A DNA stretch of 64,000 nucleotides from Desertimonas flava (lineage in GTDB: Bacteria; Actinomycetota; Acidimicrobiia; Acidimicrobiales; Ilumatobacteraceae), in the NCBI RefSeq assembly GCF_003426815.1, contig NZ_QKYK01000002.1, positions 1-64,000 of the forward strand, written 5' to 3'. Every line of letters begins with the position of its first letter. The stretch's first letter is position 1. The position numbers and the translations under genes are program-made. This document shows, one piece after another, positions 3,290-45,079 of this stretch. Below the pieces are notes generated by a model, which worked only from the letters and a program-made list of their open reading frames with translations, ran no database searches and was not told the origin of the DNA.

Positions 3290-3760
3290 TCAGTCGCGGA
3301 TGAACTCGAGCAGGTCGGCGTTGATCTCTTCGGCGTTGACGACGCACATCCCGTGGGACAGACCGGGGTAGACCTTCAGCGTCCCCTGCGTGAGGACTTC
3401 GATCGATCGTTCCGCCGAGCCGGAGCTCGGTACGACCTGGTCGTCGTCGCCGTGCATGACCAGCGTCGCCACGCCCATCGCACGGAGATCGTCGGTGAAG
3501 TCGGTCTCGGAGAACGCCGCGACGCCGTCGTAGTGAGCCTTGGCGCCTCCGCTCATTCCTTGGCGCCACCAGTTCCAGATGACGCCCAGCTGCGCGTCGA
3601 CCCCCTCGCGGTCGAACCCGTAGAAGGGGCCCGACGCGACGTCGAGATAGAACTGCGACTCCGCGCTCAGGGGCCAGCCGTGGTGGAACACGATCGGCTG
3701 TCCGGACCCCCAGTCCTTGTAGAAGATCTCGACGGCGTCGTCGATGGTGATGGTGGGCAT
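3290..3760 (-). pseudogene. Alpha/beta hydrolase (chloroperoxidase-like) with a large internal deletion
   Basis: The frame reads as a normal chloroperoxidase-type alpha/beta hydrolase at both ends, but only 156 residues remain of the usual ~275. The N-terminus (IDDAVEIFYKDWGSGQPIVF, then HGWPLSA) jumps at about residue 33 (near 3660) straight to FYLDVASGPFYGF, which normally lies about 120 residues later. The lost part contains the nucleophile elbow GHSxGG and most of the core sheet. The later acid (HGDDDQVVP) and His (GLSHGM) segments remain. The ATG at 3760 has a GAGGAG site. Without the Ser nucleophile it should not be a functional hydrolase, so it is a remnant or a mis-assembly. Confidence 0.8.
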
Positions 3761-3786
3761 GACATCTCCTCGGTGGTTCGTGGACG

Positions 3787-4807
3787 TCAGAACGTGACCA
3801 CGGCCTTGAAGCGGGTCTTCCCGGACACGACCTTGTCGAATGCCTCGCCGACCTGCTCCTTCGGGAAGACCTCGATCATCGGCTTCACCTCGCCCCGGGC
3901 CAGGAACTCGAGCGCCTCCACGAGGTATTCGATGCCGTTGTGGGCCGACCCGATGACCTGGAGGCTGTTGGAGGTCAGTCCGAGGGCCGGCAGGTTCATC
4001 TCGTCGAAGCCGATCCCGCAGAGGATGATCTTGCCCCTCGGCTTGACGCCCTGGATGGCGTCGAGCACGAGCTCGTGGGAGCTGCTCGTGTGGAGCAGCA
4101 CGTCCACCTCGCCCGCCGCCTTGAGCTCGGCTCCGTCGGTGACGACGTCGTGGGCTCCGAGCTCGCGCACCAGGTCGTGCTTGTCGGTCGACTTGGTGAT
4201 CGCCACGACATGGAGTCCCGCCGCCTTGGCGTACTGGATCGCCAGGTGGCCGAGGGCTCCGATGCCGACCACGCCGATGCGGGCGCGGGGCTTGGGTGCA
4301 GCCCGCCGGATCGCCGCCCACACCGTGTAGCCCGAGCACAGGATCGGCGCGGCGCCTTCGTAAGGCACACCGTCGGGGAGGAGCACGGTGCCACCCACGT
4401 CGACGGCGATGTACTCCGAGAAGGCGCCGTCGACGGTCACGCCGGTCAGCTTCGGGTTCGCGCAGTTCGCTGCGGTCACGAAGCTGTTGGTGTGCTCCTC
4501 GTGGCAGAAGTCGCACACGCCGTCGGCCTTCCGCATCATGAACACACCGACCCGGTCGCCGACCTTGCGCTTGGTCACGCCCTCGCCGACGGCGACGACC
4601 TCGCCGGCACCTTCGTGGCCGAGCACCAGCGGGAAGGGCCGGAACGAGAGGGCGCCCTGGGCCAGCCACAGATCGGTTCCGCACATGCCACAGGCATTGG
4701 ATCTTGACGAGCACGTCGTCGGGGCCGAGTTCCGGGACCGGCCGTTGCTCGAGTACCCATGGTGCGTTCGCCTCGGCAACGACAGCTGTCTGCATGGTGG
4801 TCGTCAT
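3787..4807 (-). pseudogene. Zinc-dependent alcohol dehydrogenase, frameshifted near its N-terminus
   Basis: Two frames together make one medium-chain alcohol dehydrogenase of about 340 residues. From the ATG at 4807 (GGAGAG site) the first frame gives the N-terminus up to VLVKIQ. One extra base near 4694-4698 then moves the reading frame, and the rest continues as ACGMCGTDLW with the catalytic zinc Cys, GHEGAGEV, CDFCHEEHTNS and the NAD-binding VVGIGALGHLA to the stop at 3787. Simple removal of one base around the CAATGCC run restores the protein. It lies 26 bp before the deleted hydrolase. Either the gene is inactive or the base is a sequencing error. Confidence 0.85.
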
Positions 4808-4904: not shown

Positions 4905-5071
4905 CTAGTGCCGTGACCACAAACGTTCGCACGCCACGACGGCCGGATGACGCCGCTGGCTGCGTTGCTGCTCCTCGTGGTTGGACAAGGCAGGCACTTC
5001 GTCGCCGCGCCTTGCCAGCGACGCCCCCGACTCGCCGTGGACGAGGCGACCGTTCATGGCCACGGCACTAG
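4905..5071. mobile_element. CTAG-bounded palindromic element, copy A (MITE-like)
   Basis: This 167-bp segment starts with CTAGTGCCGTGACCACAAACG and ends with the complement of CTAGTGCCGTGGCCATGAACG, giving long imperfect terminal inverted repeats with CTAG at both tips. Its interior, read on the minus strand, shares GTCGCTGGCAAGGCGCG, GACGAAG, CGAGGAG and AGCAACGCAGCCAGCGGCG in the same order with a second copy at 44426-44591. The conserved CGCTGGC/GCCAGCG pair forms an inner stem, so the whole element can fold into one long hairpin. It has no coding capacity. It could be a miniature transposable element with a CTAG target site, or a structured-RNA gene. Confidence 0.75.
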
Positions 5072-41514: not shown

Positions 41515-41663
41515 CGGACGGCTCCTCTCCGCTTCGACGGCGACCCTCGCGTCGCCTGAGGTGATAGACCGAGGTACACCGCGAGTCGTGACGCGAGCCG
41601 GCGTTCATCCGCGTGCCATCCAACTGGTGCTCGTCGGCTCACACGGGTGATAATCCGGCCGGC

Positions 41664-44429
41664 ATGTTCGATGACCGGCCCTCGCTCGGGTTGCTCGATC
41701 GCGTGCGGGAACGCGATGTGATGTCCCAGGTCGTTGCCAGCGTCCGCGCGGGGCAGAGTCAGGCGTTGGTGCTCCGCGGCGAGGCCGGGACCGGAAAGAC
41801 GTCCCTGTTACGGCTCGTTCAGGACGTTGCAGCAGGGTGCACGATCATCTGGACGACCGGCGTCGAGTCCGAGATGGAGCTCGCGTTCGCCGGCCTCCAG
41901 GTGCTCTGCACGCCCTTGCTCGGGCGGCTCGGGCGGCTACCCGAGCCGCAGCGAAAGGCGCTGAGCACGGCGTTCGGGCTCGACGGCGGCCCGCCCCCGG
42001 ACCGTTTCCTCGTGGGCCTCGCCGTGCTCAGCCTGCTGGCCGAGAGTGCCGAGGAGCAGCCGATCATGTGCATCGTCGACGATGCACAATGGCTCGACAG
42101 CGTCTCGTCCGAGACGCTCGCGTTCGTCGCGCGTCGCCTGCTCGCGGAGCGGGTGGGACTCTTGTTCGCCCTGCGCGACACCGGCGCTGCCCACGTTCTC
42201 GATGGGCTGCCAGATCTCGTCGTCGAAGGCCTCCCCTCCGACGACGCGCGGCTTCTGCTCGACGCGATGGTTCCCGGCCTGATCGATGACCACGTCAAGT
42301 CGCGCATCCTCGACGAAGCGCGGGGCAACCCACTGGCGCTCATGGAGTTGCCTCGTGGGGTGACCCCGGCCGAGCTGGCGGGAGGCTTCGGCCTGCCCGA
42401 CTCGCGATCGCTCGCCAGCCGTATCGAACAGCGATTCGTCGAGCGGATCGAGGCGCTCCCGCGTCCGACACAGGTCCTGCTCCTGCTCGCCGCGGTCGAG
42501 CCGCTCGGCGACGTTGGTCTCCTGTGGCGTGCCGCCGCACGCATCGGAATCGGTGACGACGCCGCCCTGCCGGCCGAAGCTGCCGGCTTGATCGATTTCG
42601 GCGTCCGTGTGCGCTTCTCTCACCCGCTCGTTCGCTCGGCGGCGCACCGCGCGTTCGATCCGGCCACCCGGCGCAGCGTGCGACAGGCCCTCGCCGACGC
42701 CACCGACCCGCACCTCGACCCCGACCGACGAGCCTGGCACCGGGCGTACGCCACGGCGACGCCCGACGAGGCGGTCGCCGAGGAGATGGAGCGGTCCGCC
42801 GGCCGTGCGCAGTCCCGTGGAGGGCTCGCCGCGGCAGCTGCGTTCCTGCAGCGCGCCGCAGAGCTCACACCGGATCGTGCCCAGCGAGTCGAGCGGTCAT
42901 TGGCGGCAGCACAGGCGAAACTCAGGGTCGCTGACGCACGGTCGGCGACGACGCTGCTCGACGCCGCCGAGCTCGGCCCGCTCGACGACCTCCAACGGGC
43001 GCGGATGGAACGGCTCCGGGCACAGGTGACGTTCCTCACCCGACGGGGGCGCGACGCGCCTGCCCTGCTGTTGGAGGCGGCCAGCCGCCTCGAGCCCCTC
43101 GACGCGACACTCGCCCGGGACACGTACCTCGAGGGGATCTCGTCGGCGATGTTCACCGGACGGTTCCGGCGCGGTCCCGGAGAACGCGAGCTCGCCGAGG
43201 CCGCGTCGAACGTCGTCGGCGAGTCGAACGATCTCAACACGGCCGAACTCCTCCTCGGCGGTCTCGTCGCGCGCTTCACCGACGGCTACGCCGCCGGCAT
43301 GGCCCCCCTCTCTCGAGCGCTCCGGGCGTTCCGGCACAGCGACGGCAGGGAGGACGACCATCAGTGGTTGTGGCTGGCGTGTCGCCTCGCGCAGGACCTC
43401 TGGGACGACGAATCGTGGTTCGAGCTCGCCACGCTCGGGGTGCGCGTTGCACGCGACACCGGTGCCCTCGCCCTGCTCCCCAACGCGTTGAACCACCTGG
43501 CAGCGCTCAACGTGCACTCGGGGGCGTTCGCCGCGGCCGCCGTCCTCAGCGACGAGGTCCGTGTGATCGCGCGCTCGATCGGGCTACCGCCCCTCGACTA
43601 CTCGAGATACAAGCTGTCGGCGAATCGGGGTGATCGGTCGGCCGTTCAGGCGCTGGTCGAGGGGCCGTTGAAGGGCGCAGCCCATCGTGGTGAGGGCGCG
43701 GCGATCGGTATGCATTGGGCGCTCGCAGCGCTCATGCACAACAGCTACGGCGAGTACAACGAGGCCGTCGCGGCCGCGCAAGCGGGCTGCGAGTTCGAGG
43801 AGGTCATGGCGTACAACGGCTCGCTCGTCGAGCTGGTGGAGGCCGGCGTCCGCAGCGGACAGCGCGAGCTTGCCGATGCCGCGTTCGACAGCCTCCGCGA
43901 GCGCACTCAGGCGAGCGGCACCGCGTGGGCACTCGGCGTGGAGTCGCGCTGCCGCGGATTGCTGACCGATGACGAGGATGCCTACCGCGAGGCGATCGAG
44001 CACCTCGCCCAGAGCCGCGCGACCGTCGAGCTGGCACGCAGCCGGCTCGTGTACGGCGAATGGCTCCGGCGCGAGGGCCGGCGGGTGAATGCCCGCGAGG
44101 AACTGCGCGCCGCACACGAGAGCTTCAGCCGCATGGGTGCCGACGCGTTCGCCGAACGGGCGCGCCGCGAACTCCTCGCCACTGGCGAGACCGCGCGCCA
44201 GGTCACCGCCGACAACTGGCATGCGTTGACTCCGCAGGAGCTCCAGGTGGCGCGGCTCGCGCGCGATGGATACACGAACTCGGAGATCGGTGCTCGGCTC
44301 TTCGTGAGCCCGCGCACCGTCGAGTACCACCTGAGCAAGGTCTACCGGAAGCTCGACGTGGACAGCCGACGGGGCCTGCGCGAGGTGTTGAACGACCCGT
44401 CCCACCAGCTGGCGCTGGGCTACGTCTAG
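41664..44429 (+). CDS. LuxR-family ATP-dependent regulator (LAL/MalT-like)
   Basis: The 921-residue protein is a large ATP-binding LuxR regulator: Walker A GEAGTGKTS at residues 39-47, Walker B PIMCIVDDAQWLD, a long helical-repeat middle and a C-terminal LuxR helix-turn-helix (LTPQELQVARLARDGYTNSE, then ARLFVSPRTVEYHLSKVYRK). It probably binds a small inducer through the middle. ATG 41664 gives this start. The stop codon TAG is the first part of the palindromic element at 44426, so the last few residues may have been changed by the insertion. Confidence 0.9.
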   Translation: MFDDRPSLGLLDRVRERDVMSQVVASVRAGQSQALVLRGEAGTGKTSLLRLVQDVAAGCTIIWTTGVESEMELAFAGLQVLCTPLLGRLGRLPEPQRKALSTAFGLDGGPPPDRFLVGLAVLSLLAESAEEQPIMCIVDDAQWLDSVSSETLAFVARRLLAERVGLLFALRDTGAAHVLDGLPDLVVEGLPSDDARLLLDAMVPGLIDDHVKSRILDEARGNPLALMELPRGVTPAELAGGFGLPDSRSLASRIEQRFVERIEALPRPTQVLLLLAAVEPLGDVGLLWRAAARIGIGDDAALPAEAAGLIDFGVRVRFSHPLVRSAAHRAFDPATRRSVRQALADATDPHLDPDRRAWHRAYATATPDEAVAEEMERSAGRAQSRGGLAAAAAFLQRAAELTPDRAQRVERSLAAAQAKLRVADARSATTLLDAAELGPLDDLQRARMERLRAQVTFLTRRGRDAPALLLEAASRLEPLDATLARDTYLEGISSAMFTGRFRRGPGERELAEAASNVVGESNDLNTAELLLGGLVARFTDGYAAGMAPLSRALRAFRHSDGREDDHQWLWLACRLAQDLWDDESWFELATLGVRVARDTGALALLPNALNHLAALNVHSGAFAAAAVLSDEVRVIARSIGLPPLDYSRYKLSANRGDRSAVQALVEGPLKGAAHRGEGAAIGMHWALAALMHNSYGEYNEAVAAAQAGCEFEEVMAYNGSLVELVEAGVRSGQRELADAAFDSLRERTQASGTAWALGVESRCRGLLTDDEDAYREAIEHLAQSRATVELARSRLVYGEWLRREGRRVNAREELRAAHESFSRMGADAFAERARRELLATGETARQVTADNWHALTPQELQVARLARDGYTNSEIGARLFVSPRTVEYHLSKVYRKLDVDSRRGLREVLNDPSHQLALGYV

Positions 44430-44591
44430 TGGTCTGTCGCCGAGTTGGTGAGGTGGATCGCGCCGCTGGGCTCGTCGCTGGCAAGGCGCGAGGACGAAGG
44501 AATACGCCCGGTCTTTCGAGGAGGAGCAACGCAGCCAGCGGCGAGGTCCAGCAAGCGAGACACCCTTACCAATCCGGCGACAGACCACTAG
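44426..44591. mobile_element. CTAG-bounded palindromic element, copy B (MITE-like)
   Basis: This 166-bp segment begins CTAGTGGTCTGTCGCCG and ends with its exact 17-bp complement (44575-44591); pairing continues to about 28 bp with three mismatches and then through most of both arms. The interior shares four blocks in the same order with copy A, including GTCGCTGGCAAGGCGCG and AGCAACGCAGCCAGCGGCG. The outer arms differ from those of copy A but pair with each other. It supplies the stop codon of the LuxR gene. Nothing coding is inside. Confidence 0.8.
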
Positions 44592-44635
44592 GTCGTGCGT
44601 CCGGCACGGGCTGTGCCGGCGCGTACGCTCCGACC

Positions 44636-45079
44636 ATGCGCACCGTGGACTCGAACTTGGGCGGTCGATGCGACCAACTTCGCTCGTTGCACCGGCGGGG
44701 AGCGCCCCTGTTGCTCCCCAACGCATGGGATGTCGCGACCGCACGCGCAGTCGCCGCGGTTGGGTTCCCCGCGGTCGGCACGACCAGTTGGGGGGTCGCA
44801 GCTTCACTCGGGTACGAAGATGACGAGCGCGCGCCCGGCGACGAGATGCTGGCGGCTGCGGCCCGGATCGTCCGCGGCGTCGACGTCCCTGTCACCGTGG
44901 ACGCAGAGGCCGGCTACGGACTGAGCCCGACCGAGCTGGTCGACGCGCTCGGGCGGGCTGGCGCGGCCGGGTGCAACCTCGAAGACACGGATCACCGCGC
45001 CGGCAGGCTGCGCGACCGCGTGACGCCGGTCGTTCATGTCATGCGATCGTGCCCGGTCAGGCGCTGTGCCAGGACGTGA
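44636..45079 (+). pseudogene. Isocitrate lyase/PEP mutase-family fragment
   Basis: The frame begins like a normal member of the isocitrate lyase/phosphoenolpyruvate mutase family: PLLLPNAWDVATARAVAAVG, FPAVGTTSWGVAASLGY, VPVTVDAEAGYG and GAAGCNLEDTDHRAGRLRD. At about 45020 homology ends and an unrelated short tail (VTPVVHVMRSC) leads to a stop, so only ~130 of the usual ~260 residues are present. The active-site KKCG region, where present in the family, is lost. It lies 44 bp from the palindromic element and faces another truncated gene. Confidence 0.8.

Follow-up and report, generated by a model that had tools for sequence, protein, structure and literature searches.

A CTAG-bounded miniature inverted-repeat element of Desertimonas flava with a structured core that recurs across bacterial phyla

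Miniature inverted-repeat elements (MITEs) are usually seen as deleted remnants of insertion sequences (ISs) with a meaningless interior. RUP of Streptococcus pneumoniae, a 107-bp element carrying no gene, has IS630-like ends, targets TA, and is described as a MITE thought to be mobilised by IS630-Spn1 (PMC2229807). ERIC and Correia/NEMIS, which the cited accounts report from enterobacteria and Neisseria, respectively, are likewise small; they have inverted repeats and tips with TA, and they give rise to transcripts that adopt long hairpin folds (PMC2229807, PMC10969869). The element analysed here was found as two copies in a stretch of 64,000 nucleotides from the actinobacterium Desertimonas flava (positions 1 to 64,000 of contig NZ_QKYK01000002.1, assembly GCF_003426815.1; hereafter, the window). 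As a non-autonomous, TA-duplicating palindrome, it is of the known kind represented by RUP, ERIC, and Correia elements. It differs from RUP, for which the cited account names one species and describes no signature of structure or function, in that one core is found across phyla under differing ends. It is set apart from ERIC and Correia/NEMIS by description rather than by alignment, and the type of core found in Herbaspirillum gave no match among E. coli genomes. With REP/REPIN, the element shares hairpin units, some of them in inverted pairs; unlike REP/REPIN, which go with RAYT transposases of the Y1 type, it shows target duplications, and the Y1 loci that were tested revealed no association with it. 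As in the RNA families of Rfam, there is a structured, covarying motif with a near-invariant internal loop. No family of Rfam release 15 reached its gathering score in the window, and in 20 element-bearing loci searched at a relaxed E-value, all matches were far below gathering, including two microRNA families lying over elements. No published description of this family was recognised in the open-licence literature of PubMed Central, which is weak evidence of absence. Judging from that literature and Rfam 15, a structured core that is conserved and covaries across phyla under changing ends is apparently undescribed, and the core is possibly a new class of structured nucleic acid.

A sequence-only reading of the window had pointed out two palindromes of similar length in opposite orientation. 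Both are real, and each has CTAG on both tips. The features, in window coordinates, are as follows.

4905..5071, minus strand (the strand whose fold is selected): element copy A of subfamily A, full length 167 bp, from sequence and core-model match.
4951..5023, minus strand: structured core of copy A, 73 nt, matched by covariance model R1 at 83.0 bits.
4906..4907: TA on the left side of copy A, a presumed target duplication, within CTAG 4905-4908.
5069..5070: TA on the right side of copy A, a presumed target duplication, within CTAG 5068-5071.
41613..44429, plus strand: LuxR-type regulator gene with AAA_16 and GerE domains, context only and outside the element; its TAG stop is inside the left end of copy B.
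44426..44591, plus strand (fold strand): element copy B of subfamily B, full length 166 bp, from sequence and core-model match.
44427..44428: TA on the left side of copy B, a presumed duplication; TAG 44427-44429 doubles as the stop of the upstream gene.
44473..44543, plus strand: structured core of copy B, matched by covariance model R1 at 81.4 bits.
44589..44590: TA on the right side of copy B, a presumed duplication, from sequence.

The opposite orientation of the two copies was borne out by the core model, which matches copy A on the minus strand and copy B on the plus strand far above chance; the third-best match in the window has 19.4 bits. The inverted arms of copy A extend over 35 nt with 83% complementarity, including 9 bases per side outside the element, and those of copy B over 28 nt with 89% complementarity. 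The outer arms do differ between the copies (A, GTGCCGTG..; B, GTGGTCTG..), each arm being complementary to its own partner. Neither copy encodes a transposase; they are short, have terminal inverted repeats, and belong to multi-copy groups, which are the general marks of MITEs. A 74-aa frame lies over copy A, and two mechanical open reading frames, 44060-45079 on the plus strand and 43584-44807 on the minus strand, run across copy B; a codon-bias gene finder passed over both of the latter. Next to copy A, the zinc alcohol dehydrogenase gene at 3290-4807 (minus strand) has an apparent frameshift near its start, at about 4690: the ATG at 4807 opens one frame, and the alcohol dehydrogenase domains match the frame 3787-4779. 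Beyond copy B, a PEP mutase-like frame of 147 aa (44636-45079, plus strand) covers only positions 1-116 of the 240 of its domain and looks truncated or frameshifted.

The genome of D. flava, searched as a 6.22-Mb draft of 73 contigs, contains many further copies, and the counts given here are lower bounds because a limited number of candidates was scored per genome. Subfamily A comprises six full copies and one half copy, the window copy included; five of them, again with the window copy, are 97-100% identical (97-98% for the four others), and one has diverged to 86%. Subfamily B has at least 14 full copies, that is, 13 and one more on contig C56, with the window copy among them, and additional B copies are interrupted by contig ends. 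Except for the diverged A copy, the arms are near-identical inside each subfamily. The difference between the arms of A and B, which had been taken as a sign of arms changing together and staying complementary, is therefore by itself a contrast between two multi-copy subfamilies and no covariation at one element. Further copies with identical arms had been named, together with clean target duplications and no transcription, as the mark of an ordinary MITE, and the near-identical arms within A and within B speak for that side.

Partial forms of subfamily B also occur in this genome. Two derivatives without the core (G000 C67:177124-177217, about 94 bp, and C42:17770-17844, about 75 bp) still have their two ends, with a change at one tip of the latter, and each is present as a single copy. 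Nine solitary B-type ends are found at G000 C34:34684, C56:107073, C8:20156, C23:111397, C24:26188, C17:45311, C72:86283, C4:14035, and C1:135083; their 14 terminal bases are exact in five of the nine and have one mismatch in four. Four of the solitary ends are located at predicted stops, and another three lie within 50 bp of the 3′ end of a gene. They may be relics or independent binding sites; neither a second end nor a transposase, which would mark them as ends of the autonomous element, was found with them. Only close matches to the B end are meaningful, because a pattern allowing up to three mismatches in 16 bases gave 69 + 82 places, against 76 + 81 for a reversed control. Another search gave 12 places, all of them elements by their sequence, versus 100 for its reversed control, whose higher number is due to its lack of CTAG.

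In the usual actinobacterial build, a core of 73 nt is flanked by arms of about 43-48 nt, the tips of which are mostly TAGTG..CACTA or TAGGG/TAGGAG. On the fold strand, the core is composed of a ten-pair stem leading to an internal loop, GCAAGGCGC facing GCAACGCNGC, and then to a variable apical hairpin. The internal loop (5′-GCAAGGCGC / 5′-GCAACGCNGC on the fold strand) is asymmetric and nearly invariant. In an alignment of 67 sequences, three letters on its left side (A, G, G) and three on its right side (A, C, and a G) are identical in every sequence; the neighbours of these six letters are nearly invariant, and most stem pairs vary on both sides. Between the internal loop and the hairpin, many copies have single Watson-Crick pairs amid tandem G.A mismatches, and others have ordinary pairs. 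The arms of the Herbaspirillum copies are short, copy-specific, and mostly well paired. In several families, GCACCGAGAGCG stands opposite a TTCGAA-containing stretch at 24-35 nt from the outer tip, a zone of the arms where a further conserved motif of non-canonical pairs may lie. Some proteobacterial loci (L266, L282, L278, L288, L365, and L366) carry the structured unit in inverted pairs spaced by about 35-40 nt; the layout resembles that of a REPIN or BIME, and the second unit in L365 and L366 scores only about 20 bits.

Beyond D. flava, it is the centre of about 71 nt, not the arms, that matches other genomes by BLAST. Such matches were obtained in four of 61 genomes, the own genome included, one of them (G037, 31 bp) being no element, and within the class in seven of 296 genomes, again including the own one. 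A stricter exact pattern found no stretch genome-wide, versus 13 stretches for a looser, degenerate pattern, distributed over Acidimicrobiia, an actinobacterium, Candidatus Poriferisocius, a Planctomycetota MAG, a Gemmatimonadetes MAG, and Herbaspirillum. The covariance search that had been suggested for the core reached further. Model R1, which describes the 73-nt core and was built from 18 cores, matched 36 of the 396 genomes searched in the phylum of D. flava, that of D. flava among them, and 17 of 398 genomes of the phylum of Herbaspirillum, Herbaspirillum included, at an E-value of 0.001 per genome; the chance expectation is well below one genome for each phylum set. At an E-value of 0.01, the model matched all five genomes found with the pattern; the Planctomycetota MAG had 62 matches and Herbaspirillum sp. 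3R11 had 14. In a specificity control of 291 kb made up of the window, own-genome sequence, and transposase loci, the two window copies scored above 80 bits, one match in an element-bearing genome had 28.9 bits, and the rest had at most 19.4 bits. Certain core matches, for example L159, L163, and L174, have no recognisable ends. As for mobile replicons, the B element had no match in plasmid and phage collections, an element of a proteobacterial genome discussed below (G1048) had no plasmid match, and two exact pattern scans of viral contigs gave none, while the Herbaspirillum-type core matched three plasmid records, two of Eleftheria terrae and one of Massilia litorea.

Two tests bear on the question of whether the fold is maintained. 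In the core, the 67 sequences contain 261 cells changed on both sides of a pair, against 75.1 in shuffles, and the covariation score is 0.444, against 0.116 in shuffles; slid controls of either alignment gave at most 0.075. For both measures, the 67-sequence set and a set of 18 sequences exceeded all 500 shuffles and every slid control. The number of pairs with a double change in the 67-sequence set is less extreme (20 versus 17.1, a value reached by four of the 500 shuffles). The 18 sequences were hand-picked and aligned with plain MAFFT, the structure having been read off these same sequences; the 67 are spread over genomes, and their alignment was fitted to the model and is thus biased toward the structure. 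The arms are absent from the core model, and their mispairs were tallied after aligning left and right arms with strand-symmetric scoring in 73 of 105 elements (terminal inverted repeat score of at least 9, arm of 42-54 nt). Read on the fold strand, these mispairs are 293 G.T and 100 A.C, where composition predicts a ratio of 1.24, and in the outer 18 nt they are 96 and 8 (12:1). Counted by genome, G.T exceeds A.C in 32 of 35, falls below it in one, and ties in two; these 35 genomes are not mutually independent, and the shuffle controls of the core likewise ignore relatedness. The excess is gone at 24-29 nt from the tip (30 G.T versus 27 A.C) and reversed at 30-35 nt (14 versus 53). RNA and DNA parameters alike give the fold strand the higher stability in all 73 elements, a result to which the core contributes through the choice of strand. 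In folded single-stranded DNA, too, G.T is better tolerated than A.C, so that the bias cannot separate RNA from DNA. If a palindrome merely decayed, or if one arm were corrected from the other, there would be no obvious reason for a strand preference, so that the G.T bias speaks for a fold. Taken with the covariation of the core, this one-strand bias shows statistically that the single-stranded fold of one strand is under selection.

Selection is not seen in the same way in recent copies. Among the 14 B copies, 31 changes from the consensus were counted over 124 paired and 42 unpaired sites, of which 13 break a pair, 8 keep it, and 10 are at unpaired sites; these are raw counts from a small set. 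Young B copies are apparently not clearly constrained at their insertion sites. The earlier proposal of a selected fold is supported by the covariation of the core and the one-strand G.T bias of the arms; selection site by site is not visible in young B copies. Fold and MITE had been offered as alternatives, and both are supported together, the elements having the traits of MITEs as well as a selected fold.

The insertion sites were compared in 80 distinct elements, leaving out those with a score below 7, seven without assignable ends, and repeated identical ends, with a rule for placing the ends that favoured TA. TA is present on both sides in 37 of the 80, including both window copies; in these 37, C precedes the left TA in 31 and G follows the right TA in 21. 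Equal 3-bp flanks were seen in nine of the 80 (TTA four, TAA four, CAA one), and 34 have neither arrangement. Genes were called on both sides of 91 of 96 elements with a home-made gene finder. Among these 91, 48 of 103 gene 3′ ends facing an element are within 8 bp of it, compared with 8 of 79 5′ ends, and the fold strand runs antisense to the genes on both sides in 39 and sense to both in 22, a mild lean. Of the 96, 12 have a predicted open reading frame of more than 150 aa that spans the core. CTAG itself is rare: the window has 11, four of them within the two elements, where composition predicts 180, an approximately 16-fold depletion. In 243 kb of own sequence, a non-random sample in which 11 of 12 stretches were chosen for holding element ends, 38 CTAG sites comprise 11 predicted stops, 20 intergenic sites, and 7 inside predicted genes. 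Insertions are thus found at stops and between genes probably because the CTAG target is nearly absent inside genes. Landing at a stop codon or between genes would do little harm, and the scarcity of CTAG in genes offers a simple reason for it.

A cognate of the elements was seen in one genome only, the proteobacterial G1048. There, a 1,192-bp element extending from TA to TA, with the ends CTAGTGTGGTGTTTCAGAA, encodes a 365-aa protein that matches PF13358 (DDE_3) with an E-value of 1.2e-22, and its ends are identical over 19 bp to those of two among the three hairpin copies fetched from this genome; the remaining copy departs from them by one base, at one end. IS630 reportedly prefers CTAG, as the title of a reference has it. 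IS630-family elements are described as inserting into TA, which is duplicated (PMC2170065). From the shared 19-bp ends, the TA target, and the precedent of RUP, the family is read as moved by IS630-type enzymes. In D. flava, the mover acting in trans is likely a transposase of the IS630/Tc1-mariner type, a view extended from the matching ends of one other genome. No DDE_3 transposase was detected at an E-value of 0.001 in 17 of 26 genomes with core matches, including the 73-contig draft of the own genome, where a cognate IS630 was sought, and there was no DDE_3 match in Herbaspirillum. Comparison of 15 of 16 DDE_3 loci revealed no matching IS ends beyond G1048. The equal 3-bp (TNA) flanks differ from what is expected of IS630, and the TNA duplications may reflect a different transposase in some families. 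Targets of the IS5 family include CTAG/TA and TNA, so that the nine 3-bp duplications, along with one DDE_Tnp_1 match in the own genome, would suit the IS5/IS427-type transposase that the sequence-only reading had considered for a MITE. However, DDE_Tnp_1 (PF01609) is present in just 6 of 14 genomes with core matches, and in 14 of 18 fetched DDE_Tnp_1 loci that were checked, the sole element ends flank a neighbouring IS630-type gene. This is the locus of G1048, where the IS630-type element adjoined the DDE_Tnp_1 gene under inspection. The ends in G1048 indicate IS630 (PF13358) instead, and an IS5/IS427-type mover appears very improbable. The same low standing is given to a REP/REPIN-like nature of the element, with a Y1 transposase that would move it by way of single-stranded DNA. 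HUH enzymes read a fold of one strand, which suits the selected fold, and the inverted units about 35-40 nt apart in some Proteobacteria would also fit; yet Y1_Tnp (PF01797) was found in 14 of the 25 core-bearing genomes searched, 27 of 30 fetched Y1 loci tested for element ends gave only chance-like partial matches, none convincing, and direct TA or TNA duplications are unexpected under Y1 transposition. An attC-like recombination site, considered for the Herbaspirillum arms (CTAAC..GTTAG), was set aside on general grounds, since it is the centre that is conserved and this motif is absent from the other families.

The organisation of the element, about 167 bp long, is best described in three layers. 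The outermost 19 bp or so would be recognition ends for a transposase that a different element supplies. This enzyme, most probably one of the IS630/Tc1-mariner type, would insert the element into the TA of CTAG and duplicate TA. The inner arms form a second layer that varies and remains complementary. The third layer, the central 73 nt, is the conserved structured core with its covarying stem, near-invariant internal loop, and variable apical hairpin. Differences between subfamilies would come from ends that track different transposases around a core that is retained. The fold would most likely act in cis for the spread of the element, as single-stranded DNA or RNA during or around transposition, and not for the benefit of the host at individual sites. 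Since young copies seem unconstrained and the fold of the lineage is kept across phyla, multiplication of the element would, most simply, require the fold. In agreement, the B derivatives lacking the core are single-copy, in two cases only. A transposase-dependent element of three layers whose fold has a role in mobility in cis is the account to which somewhat better than even confidence is given. A structured regulatory RNA, in which the fold strand is transcribed and serves host genes as a hairpin bound by a protein, a site of processing, or a UTR element, transposition being the mere means of spread, is unlikely but deserves some weight. G.U-compatible drift on one strand together with covariation is typical of RNA, and ERIC and Correia elements are described as transcribed and processed (PMC10969869, PMC2229807). 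Four of six Herbaspirillum copies examined are flanked on both sides by genes sense to the fold strand, two of these four with a predicted start no more than 20 nt away. The Herbaspirillum arms, short, copy-specific, and complementary, would fit selection per site better than selection for spread. On the other hand, the 91 elements show no preference of the fold strand for the sense orientation relative to neighbouring genes (22 sense to both, 39 antisense to both), and young B copies have no clear excess of changes that keep a pair. These young copies would agree with an ordinary IS630-type MITE, whose hairpin is a by-product of inverted ends and whose core is neutral filler, as would the clean multi-copy families, the CTAG/TA sites, and an IS with shared ends. 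Such an origin of the core is nevertheless improbable, as neutral filler is already contradicted by the covariation in 67 sequences and by the G.T bias of the arms genome by genome, which reaches 12:1 on one strand in the outer arms. Likewise, the internal loop is kept across phyla, and the two core-less B derivatives have remained single copies even though they keep both ends, one tip being altered.

With the mobility account preferred, the element departs from the usual picture of a MITE. Here, the interior is the best-kept part, the ends change, and the constraint acts on one folded strand, which is unusual for elements this small. That the fold was kept across several phyla while the ends changed suggests a function for the fold as such. 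It is conceivable, at somewhat less than an even chance, that the core belongs to an undescribed class of structured nucleic acid that travels through Actinobacteria, Planctomycetota, Gemmatimonadota, and Proteobacteria as selfish cargo, keeping its fold and near-invariant loop for very long periods and swapping its ends to parasitise different transposases, with the folded strand (RNA or single-stranded DNA) enabling spread, perhaps via a conserved host factor. If this is true, the element would parasitise transposases and yet contribute a functional component itself, and its internal loop, GCAAGGCGC / GCAACGCNGC, would provide a concrete motif with which to search for its partner.
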